From Verrucomicrobiaceae bacterium (GTDB taxonomy: Bacteria > Verrucomicrobiota > Verrucomicrobiia > Verrucomicrobiales > Akkermansiaceae), in NCBI GenBank assembly GCA_027484055.1, contig JAIXQH010000067.1, positions 1 through 64,000 of the forward strand: a stretch of 64,000 nt of DNA, written 5' to 3'. The translations under genes and the position numbers were made by a program. Positions within the stretch are counted from its first letter, which is position 1. Every line of letters begins with the position of its first letter. The notes below the pieces were generated by a model. That model was not told the DNA's origin and made no database searches. It was given only the letters and a program-made list of their open reading frames with translations. This document shows, in pieces, positions 32,315 through 34,204 of this stretch.

Positions 32315-32806
32315 GTGTATCAATCAACCACTGACACGCTGTCGGATTTTCTCGTGAGCACTGCCGCCCAATGTAACAAAGGTACTTATACCTACAAAAT
32401 GGACCCCAAGTTCCGGGTGTCCATTCCGCCACAATGGCGCCCTGCGGGAGGGGAAGTTTTGCACCTGCTTAAATCCAAAACACACGGCATGCCGATGATT
32501 AAAGTCCTCTCGTTGGAGGCCTTTCAGCACCGAATGGATACGATCGAAAACAGCGATCTCAATGCTGCGCAGAAATACGACCTGATTGGCAGACTGTCGG
32601 CGAATAGCCGTCCCGCGACTCTGAATGATCAGGGTAAACTGCTGATCCCCAAGGAGCTGAGCGACGAAATCGGCATCCTCGCAGAAACCGAAATCTCTCT
32701 CGTCGGGCGGGGCCTGCATTTCGAAGTCTGGAATAAGGACAATTACGCGGAAGCCGTCGCCATCGAGTCCGATAGCAAGGAATTCGCCCACCTCGGAGTT
32801 CTCTAA
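32315..32806 (+). CDS. mraZ: Transcriptional regulator MraZ
   Basis: A 163-residue protein from a GTG at 32315. The two SpoVT/AbrB-like halves are visible: YKMDPKFRVSIPPQWRP (residues 27-43) and LNDQGKLLIPKELSDEIGI (about 98-116), with VSLVGRG-like ISLVGRGLHFEVW at the end. MraZ is the conserved first gene of dcw clusters and binds direct repeats in its own promoter. The N-terminus is about 20 residues longer than in E. coli. Confidence 0.9.
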   Translation: MYQSTTDTLSDFLVSTAAQCNKGTYTYKMDPKFRVSIPPQWRPAGGEVLHLLKSKTHGMPMIKVLSLEAFQHRMDTIENSDLNAAQKYDLIGRLSANSRPATLNDQGKLLIPKELSDEIGILAETEISLVGRGLHFEVWNKDNYAEAVAIESDSKEFAHLGVL

Positions 32807-32836
32807 AATTCTCACCCACCACACATAACAACTGCA

Positions 32837-34204
32837 ATGTTGTCCACCCCACCAACTCTGGCACTTGACGCGCACCGCTATTCAGCGGCTTCGGTCGCTC
32901 ACGCCCAAGTGCCCGAGTCGGTTTTTTACCCGATTTTAGAAACGATCGAGGCGTTGCGACGTCTCGCTTTCCAATCGACTGTCTGCACCGCTTCAAGGGA
33001 GTTCTCGGTGCGGCAGACGCTGATTTTCATGGCTGGGCGCACGAAGTCTCTCGGGACAGAGCTTCACGCGCTTTTTATGACGAGGGACCGCACTGCGCCT
33101 GGCTGGTTGTCGGTGCGTCCCTCGAATTTTCTCCTGGCTGGGCGTGGAAAATCTCTCGGGACAGAGATTTTTACGCTTTTTATGACGATGGTCCGCGCTG
33201 CTCCTGGCTGGTTGTCAGCGCGGCCATCGACTCTTTCTGACTCATTCCGCGCGGATTTTTCGACACCCGTTGCGGCGGGTGACTACCACCTGCCCGTTTT
33301 TCCTGCCGAAGTTGGCGAATGGATGGCTGCTAAACCTGAGAGCTTCATCATCGACGGCACCCTAGGCGGAGGTGGACATAGTGAAATTTTTCTCAAAGCG
33401 GGTGCCCGCGTGCTCGGGGTGGATCGTGACCCTGAGGCGCTGGCTCATGCGCGTGCGCGGCTGGCAGAGTATGGTCACCGCTTCACAACGTGGGAGGGGA
33501 ATTTCTCAAGAATCGTGGAAGTGCCTGAAATCAAACAAGGCATGCGTGCAGATGGCCTTTTGCTTGATCTGGGGGTTTCGTCACGGCAGCTGGATTCGGC
33601 AGTGCGCGGGTTCTCATTCATGCGCGAGGGGCCGCTTGACATGCGCATGGGGCCATCGTGCGTGACGACGGCCGCCGACATCGTGAATCGGTGGCCAGAA
33701 GCTGAAATCGTCCGGATCTTGTTCGAATTCGGTGAGGAGTCTCGGGCTCGGCGCATTGCCGGGGCGATTTTGAATCAGCGTGCAACGAAGCCGTTCGAAA
33801 CCACTCTCGACCTTGCAAATTGTATCGAGCGTGCCATTGGCCGTCATGGTCGAACCCACCCCGCAACTAAGACATTTCAAGCCATTCGCATGGCGGTCAA
33901 CGAAGAATTGGAATCCTTAGCCACCGCGCTCGCGGCGGCTCCAAGTGTTTTGAAACCCGGCGGACTCCTGCTCATTATCACCTTCCACAGCCTAGAAGAT
34001 CGCATGGTGAAACGATTCTTGAAACATCGCTCCACTGCCTTTTTGGATGAACCAGGCTGGCCCGAACCCCGGCCAAATCCTGAATATCAATTCAAGCTAC
34101 TCGCCCGGAAATCCATCGCACCGACTGCCGCAGAAATCACCCGCAACCCGCGTGCTCGTAGCGCAAAACTACGAGTTGCACAGCTTTTAGCACCCACCTT
34201 ATGA
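32837..34204 (+). CDS. rsmH: 16S rRNA m4C1402 methyltransferase with unusual N-terminal extension
   Basis: The methyltransferase body starts at about residue 150 (HLPVFPAEVGEW) and is canonical: DGTLGGGGHSE (SAM loop), VLGVDRDPEAL, DGLLLDLGVSSRQLD, RGFSFMREGPLDMRM, KTFQAIRMAVNEELE and TFHSLEDRMVKRF. RsmH methylates C1402 of 16S rRNA. Normal RsmH begins close to this point, so the first 150 codons are extra. They include two 35-residue tandem repeats (GRTKSLGTELHALFMTRD, GRGKSLGTEIFTLFMTMV) encoded by a 105-bp DNA repeat. No ATG lies near the canonical start; a TTG in the second repeat could also initiate. The end overlaps ftsL by ATGA. Confidence 0.85.
   Translation: MLSTPPTLALDAHRYSAASVAHAQVPESVFYPILETIEALRRLAFQSTVCTASREFSVRQTLIFMAGRTKSLGTELHALFMTRDRTAPGWLSVRPSNFLLAGRGKSLGTEIFTLFMTMVRAAPGWLSARPSTLSDSFRADFSTPVAAGDYHLPVFPAEVGEWMAAKPESFIIDGTLGGGGHSEIFLKAGARVLGVDRDPEALAHARARLAEYGHRFTTWEGNFSRIVEVPEIKQGMRADGLLLDLGVSSRQLDSAVRGFSFMREGPLDMRMGPSCVTTAADIVNRWPEAEIVRILFEFGEESRARRIAGAILNQRATKPFETTLDLANCIERAIGRHGRTHPATKTFQAIRMAVNEELESLATALAAAPSVLKPGGLLLIITFHSLEDRMVKRFLKHRSTAFLDEPGWPEPRPNPEYQFKLLARKSIAPTAAEITRNPRARSAKLRVAQLLAPTL
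32981..33229 (+). repeat. Tandem palindromic element with covarying hairpins in the rsmH 5' region
   Basis: Two 105-bp units begin at 33031 and 33136 (both GGCTGGGCG). Each has hairpin A, with loop CGGGAC (copy 1 33037-33071, copy 2 33142-33176), and hairpin B, with loop core CCTGGCTGGTTGT (copy 1 33081-33124, copy 2 33186-33229). Stems are kept while bases change: GAAG/CTTC becomes AAAA/TTTT in A, and CGAGGG/CCCTCG becomes CGATGG/CCATCG in B. A further hairpin at 32981-33018 sits where hairpin B of a preceding unit would be. The unit length is a multiple of three, so the frame stays open. Confidence 0.75.

Follow-up and report, generated by a model that had tools for sequence, protein, structure and literature searches.

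A tandem hairpin array within the reading frame of rsmH as a candidate structured RNA of the division cluster in Luteolibacter-type bacteria

The beginning of the rsmH (mraW) gene in this 4.4 Mb draft genome carries a tandem array of hairpin repeats, which lies downstream of mraZ and within the first 150 codons of the rsmH frame. The reading that we favour, and hold to be somewhat probable, is that of a structured RNA array on the sense rsmH message, which is overprinted on a disordered tail of RsmH and would act in cis on the mraZ-rsmH message. The hairpins, the covariation of their stems, the constancy of their loops, the bias towards the sense strand, the open and selected reading frame and the restriction to one locus, in those genomes of two related genera that were checked, come directly out of the computations. 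Judged from sequence, RNA structure is superimposed on a tail of RsmH that appears to be translated and is predicted to be disordered, and the array is presented as a new candidate structured RNA within a protein-coding gene.

Architecture of the array at the mraZ-rsmH locus

The window, i.e., the whole analysed stretch of 64,000 nucleotides, contains the following features.

32315..32806, + strand: ORF of mraZ, the upstream neighbour of rsmH (ORF list; Pfam MraZ, E 6.4e-07)
32837..34204, + strand: rsmH (mraW) ORF, from the conserved ATG through the stop codon (Pfam Methyltransf_5, E 2.3e-99)
32837..33286, + strand: N-terminal extension of RsmH, 150 aa, bearing the array and predicted to be disordered (AlphaFold2)
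32923..33028, + strand: unit 0, decayed (covariance model, E 4.9e-5)
32980..33019, + strand: H2 hairpin of unit 0 (sequence, fold)
33028..33133, + strand: unit 1 (covariance model, E 7.1e-20)
33037..33071, + strand: H1 hairpin of unit 1, loop CGGGAC at 33052-33057 (sequence, fold)
33081..33124, + strand: H2 hairpin of unit 1, loop including CCTGGCTGGTTGTC at 33098-33111 (sequence, fold)
33133..33238, + strand: unit 2 (covariance model, E 4.0e-22)
33142..33176, + strand: H1 hairpin of unit 2, loop CGGGAC at 33157-33162 (sequence, fold)
33186..33229, + strand: H2 hairpin of unit 2, loop including CCTGGCTGGTTGTC at 33203-33216 (sequence, fold)
33287..34201, + strand: methyltransferase core of RsmH (Pfam; 1wg8 and E. 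coli RsmH 3tka among the best Foldseek hits)

The true start codon of mraZ may sit inside the ORF as called. Each unit consists of two hairpins, H1, which is capped by the hexaloop CGGGAC, and H2, whose loop lies around CTGGCTGGTTGT. The first-pass annotation had described two 105-bp units of two hairpins each, and alignment and folding confirm this for 33028-33238: units 1 and 2 align over 105 columns, 81 of which are identical in both by our own count. That the loops are conserved while stem changes preserve the pairing, as it had also claimed, can be read directly in the sequence (GAAG/CTTC versus AAAA/TTTT; CGAGGG/CCCTCG versus CGATGG/CCATCG; GCGC/GCGC versus GCGT/ACGC). The third hairpin seen ahead of the units turns out to be H2 of the decayed unit 0 (approximately 32980-33019), and the open frame said to add about 150 residues to RsmH amounts to 150 residues by ORF and Pfam analysis.

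The + strand of positions 32975-33235 folds with -113.1 kcal/mol (z -3.54) and the - strand with -103 kcal/mol (z -5.19), and for either strand 0 of 200 shuffles was as good. The pair of units was not reported by the repeat finder at default settings. A search of the source genome on the DNA level and with the covariance model yielded no second array locus; for the H2 loop or its complement, one match with one mismatch was found elsewhere in this genome versus two for a reversed control pattern. Scanning 2.3 kb for terminators resulted in five sites versus a shuffled mean of 2.9 (sd 1.3); terminator-like sites fall on 33005-33023 in the decayed unit 0 and on 33274-33294 just past the array, whereas the four hairpins of the full units 1 and 2 bear none, so that simple attenuation at these hairpins is not supported. 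The leader upstream of the rsmH ATG (here, e.g., 32812-32836) is C/A-rich and CACCCACACCCAACAGCAGCAATG-like in many of the 17 leaders viewed.

Selection on RNA structure and on the reading frame

For the comparison across genomes, a set of 146 units was collected by requiring exact CGGGAC and TGGCTGG, of which 82 were left after removal of near copies, and 82 units of the Luteolibacter-type genus served to train a covariance model, R1. In the model alignment of the 126 units found by R1, 93.2% of the cells are paired versus 77.5% after shuffling, 343 cells are changed on both sides versus 121, and the covariation score is 0.485 versus 0.206, with slid-partner controls of at most 0.107. Of the 17 stem pairs, 15 changed on both sides; this alignment (A3) is fitted to the R1 structure and its pair counts lean towards R1, and a MAFFT alignment made without structure again gives 15/17. 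The constancy of the loops must be read from the 126 model matches, because the 146-unit set required exact loops: TCGGGACA forms the H1 loop in 106/126 units and CCGGGACG in 11/126, which shows that the closing pair changes on both sides, and TGGCTGGTTGTC stands in the H2 loop of 96/126 (own sum).

The kind of mismatch tolerated in the stems points to the strand. Leaving out the two innermost pairs, alignment A2, whose pair columns were taken from RNAalifold on the sense strand, holds 62 G-U pairs versus 26 A-C mismatches, where independent columns would give 133 versus 96. The model alignment holds 138 versus 35, or 100 versus 35 without helix 4 (two innermost pairs dropped). A model-blind count gives 30 versus 9 if four Watson-Crick flanking pairs per side are demanded, 105 versus 65 with three and 795 versus 632 with two, at a ratio of 1.33 to 1 expected from composition, i.e., the excess fades as the flanks shorten. 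This preference for G-U over A-C makes the sense-strand RNA a likelier target of selection than the DNA.

The palindromes might nevertheless act on the DNA level, as binding sites (e.g., for MraZ or a nucleoid protein) or by forming cruciforms or hairpins of single-stranded DNA, to which we assign a small chance. The period of 105 bp is close to ten helical turns, successive H1 hairpins are mostly 105 nt apart across the loci of the genus, and the - strand folds well too (see z above). However, DNA would not need the excess of G-U over A-C (62 versus 26; 30 versus 9 with four flanking pairs), even though that excess weakens with shorter flanks; R1 matches span 100 to 114 nt (one cut piece set aside); and variable stems with near-constant loops are the pattern of an RNA that is read at its loops.

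Selection on structure with compensatory change, as proposed in the first-pass annotation, is further supported by shuffles in which synonymous codons were permuted, keeping the protein and its codon usage. In 49/56 genomes of the genus none of the 40 shuffles folds as well as the natural sequence (z -4.7 on average; 50/56 below -2; for L042 and L047 the regions were trimmed to the last 720 nt), and 7/56 fail to beat all of them. In the rsmH core of six genomes, used as control, z was 1.1, -0.7, -1.1, -3.2, 0.1 and 0.1, i.e., five of six between -1.2 and +1.2 and the sixth at -3.2. Moreover, the extension shows a lower dS than the core in 16/17 related species pairs (e.g., 0.15 versus 1.12); these pairs share genomes and are not independent.

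A mutational mechanism without function, in which tandem duplication combined with quasi-palindrome correction keeps the arms complementary in the absence of selection, seems decidedly unlikely to us. Quasi-palindrome correction works by template switching. The number of units does vary between genomes, and some units within a genome are near copies, 6/56 loci holding a pair at an identity of at least 0.90. The mechanism leaves unexplained, however, the constant loops, the low dS, the persistence of the H1 loop across two frames, the sense bias and the confinement to one gene. Units that are two apart are more alike than neighbours (0.68 versus 0.55), indicating a higher-order period of approximately 210 nt; the unit counts behind these comparisons of identity and period are pattern-based and represent lower bounds.

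The frame that runs through the array is kept open. In the 53 loci with mraZ, the rsmH frame contains 4 stops, whereas the two alternative frames contain 142 and 145, and 51/53 loci have no stop in the rsmH frame, the first 60 nt downstream of the mraZ stop being skipped in the count. A broken or shifted frame within the array is seen in 3/56 loci (L029, L134, L143), all of them from draft assemblies. In one of these, L134 (G029), two hairpin units stand in another frame than in the similar L138 (G019) with the loops kept; this array lies at a contig edge, so that the difference is possibly an assembly error. Both hairpins keep the usual frame in 131 of the 146 H1-H2 pairs; in 12 others H1 is displaced by one base while H2 remains in frame, and in the last 3 H2 is out of frame as well. 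In the slipped H1 the peptide LGT turns into SGQ and the loop stays unchanged; these 12 units come from nine related genomes and may trace back to one event.

On the protein level, the repeat unit comprises 35 residues (LGTE..APGWLSARPS). Differences at the three codon positions sum to 303, 309 and 450 over the 17 related pairs, with no third-position excess in some of them, and dN/dS of the extension is below 1 in 17/17 pairs (0.24-0.85). The method used tends to give values below 1 where transitions dominate, and the constraint on the protein is thus real but modest. AlphaFold2 predicts residues 1-149 with pLDDT below 50 and the RsmH core with confidence over most of its length (14 sequences), and no folded domain is predicted in the extension. 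In a Pfam search with E up to 1, the sole match of the extension was an insignificant one to Harakiri (E 0.15).

These data also bear on the idea that the peptide repeats are what is selected and that the palindromes are a by-product, which we regard as very unlikely. It would account for the preserved frame, for the dN/dS values and for the codon positions, at which some pairs lack the third-position excess. It does not account for the loss of structure in the codon-preserving shuffles (49/56), for synonymous change below that of the core in 16/17 pairs, or for the exchange of LGT for SGQ on the frame slip, and the tail concerned is predicted to be disordered.

Conversely, the array might form an untranslated structured leader with the rsmH start just before the core and a frame that is open by chance. 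An in-frame ATG, GTG or TTG occurs within 25 codons before the core in 49/56 loci (ATG in 11/56), many of these candidates being, by eye, the TTG of the last H2 loop, and no Shine-Dalgarno-like run was seen by eye ahead of the upstream rsmH ATG in 17 leaders. Against this, just 16/56 loci offer a start codon at 12 codons or fewer from the core, an in-frame ATG follows the mraZ stop at 7-45 nt in 50/53 loci (at 24-45 nt in 48), the source locus among them, and the stop counts given above are hard to reconcile with chance, which makes this explanation highly improbable. The structured leader RNA offered as an alternative in the first-pass annotation has therefore to be divided: a structured cis-acting RNA comes closest to the data, whereas the region is not an untranslated leader, because its frame is kept open.

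Distribution among relatives

In a DNA search, the array was matched in 35/37 genomes of the Luteolibacter-type genus, counting the source genome, and in 0/22 genomes of other genera of the order, which answers in the affirmative whether the insert in rsmH is found in related species: it is conserved across this genus and gives no match in those 22 genomes. R1 matches 39/41 genomes of the genus with 1 to 8 matches per matched genome, genome G028 having five; R1 was trained on units of this genus, so that these matches are partly by construction, and genus g19 together with the rest of the phylum serves as the independent test. Both genomes that R1 missed, G008 and G033, likewise yielded no rsmH when orthologues were searched for. 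Genus g19 stands outside the training set, yet at least 17 of its genomes were matched. In the family, at least 39/145 genomes matched, at least 22 of them Luteolibacter-type and at least 17 from g19, i.e., 2/16 genera among the matches listed; in the order 7/112 genomes from two genera matched, and in the phylum sample 7/288, only from the Luteolibacter-type genus and g19. The scans of genus, family, order and phylum were run with stricter filters, by which weak matches may be lost, and cmsearch dropped units sharing 1 nt with an adjacent one.

In the scans of genus and order, every match listed lies beside rsmH on its contig or on a piece at a contig edge, and 7/7 of these edge pieces carry mraZ; among the matches listed in the family scan, those of one genome likewise cluster. 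In 53 loci of the genus, 363 to 982 nt separate the rsmH core from the stop of mraZ. The orthologue search underlying these loci gave a match in 58/61 genomes and an orthologue in 56 (G008, G025 and G033 without match; G026 and G081 with a paralogue only), and the 53 do not include 3 of these loci, whose contigs run out before mraZ is reached. A second RsmH-like gene, with approximately 34-42% identity to the dcw copy, is present in many genomes of the genus (e.g., G000:C47:58915-59661, in the source genome).

The copies in 39/41 genomes of the genus and in g19, which the covariance model search of relatives proposed at first reading did bring up, and a fold that beats shuffled sequence are the opposite of what the first-pass annotation had named as speaking against its proposal, namely no copies or conservation in any relative and a fold no better than shuffled. 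Its analogy to Rickettsia palindromic elements fails, as every match listed in the scans of genus and order is at mraZ-rsmH or on edge pieces that bear mraZ. A mobile element of this type inserted in frame into rsmH shares with the array the in-frame palindromic unit of about 100 nt, and it is rejected as extremely improbable, because, at the sensitivity of the searches, neither the source genome nor the relatives checked hold a second site.

Two further lineages were viewed. In the one genome examined of the more distant genus g21 (L162), which gives no R1 match, H1-type hairpins occur twice without H2, their loop lying around AAGGGACG and TGGCTGGGCGG standing ahead, and the second of them ends where the RsmH core begins; this is possibly an early stage of the array. 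In genus g18 (L185-L190, L192-L196), RsmH carries a different, non-repetitive N-terminal extension of approximately 200 aa instead of the array. Two of ten such extensions show a weak match to Pfam Y1_Tnp (best E 0.00051), one of the two containing an NHVHV motif that we take to be HUH-like, and a profile search of solved structures gave no transposase; from these sequence matches, RsmH may here carry a transposase-like domain that was domesticated and joined to it. As an origin of the array it was discarded, for it has no such hairpins, bar one weak GGGAC loop in L192.

Possible function and comparison with known systems

Returning to the structured RNA on the sense message, near-constant loops on variable stems imply that the loops are read by something, and tandem copies suggest additive or cooperative binding. 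The array is placed approximately 90-400 nt into the ORF, so that its structure would be present only when ribosomes are sparse. Taken together, these three properties favour a translation-coupled cis element for rsmH and the division cluster. We infer a control of the following kind: translation of the rsmH start region would melt the hairpins, and sparse ribosomes on it would let them form; a putative RNA-binding factor would then recognise the repeated loops, and its binding would tune the expression of rsmH and of the genes downstream or the decay of the message, with the number of units setting the strength of the effect. Since a ribosome melts hairpins inside an ORF, any such effect would depend on the translation state, and the array would act in cis on the message of the division cluster.

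A bolder version, to which we give little credence, holds that the copy number of this regulatory RNA is an evolving dial and that RsmH or its tail reads its own message, thereby autoregulating a link between rRNA methylation and the division cluster; if true, the same DNA would encode both the hairpins of the array and the repeated peptides of the resulting protein. Two further ideas were dropped. CsrA recognising the GGA of the H1 loop was rejected, as CsrA is found in 0/39 genomes by a search that does find it in the controls E. coli, B. subtilis and T. maritima. A mimicry of the 16S C1402 region by H2, suggested by eye, was given up because the similar bases fall into the variable stem.

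The case matters in several respects. Two codes are clearly laid on one strand, an open frame and paired hairpins, one hairpin being slipped in frame with its loop kept. A putative RNA reader would be tied to a division-cluster gene, that of a 16S rRNA methyltransferase. As the units can be counted, dosage experiments would be simple, and in Verrucomicrobium spinosum mraW is not essential, targeted mutagenesis and a viable deletion being described in the excerpts of PMC12283558, which makes the gene open to manipulation in this phylum. Searches for structured RNAs that centre on intergenic regions would miss the array, because it is located inside a reading frame.

No prior description of the array was found by titles and abstract openings among the best matches of larger result sets, nor was literature naming both Luteolibacter and rsmH. 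Rfam gave two matches to mir-4041 in the source region at E up to 1, neither of them within the array and both well short of the gathering score, and 0 matches in six relatives at E up to 0.5. The mraW RNA motif of Actinomycetales (Rfam RF01746) is a candidate structured RNA according to the excerpted text of PMC2864571 and is named after the same gene, mraW/rsmH. The array is without an Rfam match, the two being compared by listing and Rfam search, and it differs as a set of repeated hairpins within a translated ORF that is matched, in the phylum sample, only in two verrucomicrobial genera.

Among repetitive elements, PARCELs are characterised in the available parts of PMC2996958 as amphipathic repeats of 25 residues, which occur in genes whose function is unknown and are thought to spread horizontally. 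The array shares with them tandem, in-frame coding repeats with dyad symmetry in the DNA; in contrast, its repeats measure 35 residues, are disordered by prediction and are not amphipathic 25-residue (DUF285-like) repeats, its loops are conserved and its stems covary, and it is confined to a single housekeeping gene. Mobile association and horizontal spread are not seen either, the array being single-locus in the genomes checked and present in two genera of the phylum sample. Rickettsia palindromic elements, placed at many unrelated genes per genome by the portions of PMC10969869 at hand, have a palindromic unit of similar size that is read in frame within a gene, as the array has, but the array is tandem and at one locus instead of dispersed. 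REP/BIME elements occur in many copies between genes. The source genome holds 13 matches above cut-off to Y1_Tnp (the IS200/REP-associated transposase family). Despite these, the array stays at one locus, whereas elements moved by REP-associated transposases are multi-copy.

Candidate structured RNAs overlapping cas genes, some of them palindromic, are reported in the excerpts of PMC9067536; compared by description, they resemble the array in predicted structure over coding genes and differ in the genes concerned. For Rhodobacter sphaeroides, the passages of PMC5089854 describe an extended dcw 5' leader with the sRNA UpsM, which is part of the untranslated leader ahead of mraZ and is terminator-ended. 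Both are RNA structures in the message of the division cluster of one lineage; the array differs by its position downstream of mraZ and within rsmH and by the lack of a terminator on its full hairpins in the scan. UpsM serves as a precedent for a lineage-specific RNA in the division cluster message. Finally, structure backed by covariation and a fixed position at one gene, as expected of cis-regulatory structured RNAs in general, are both found in the array.
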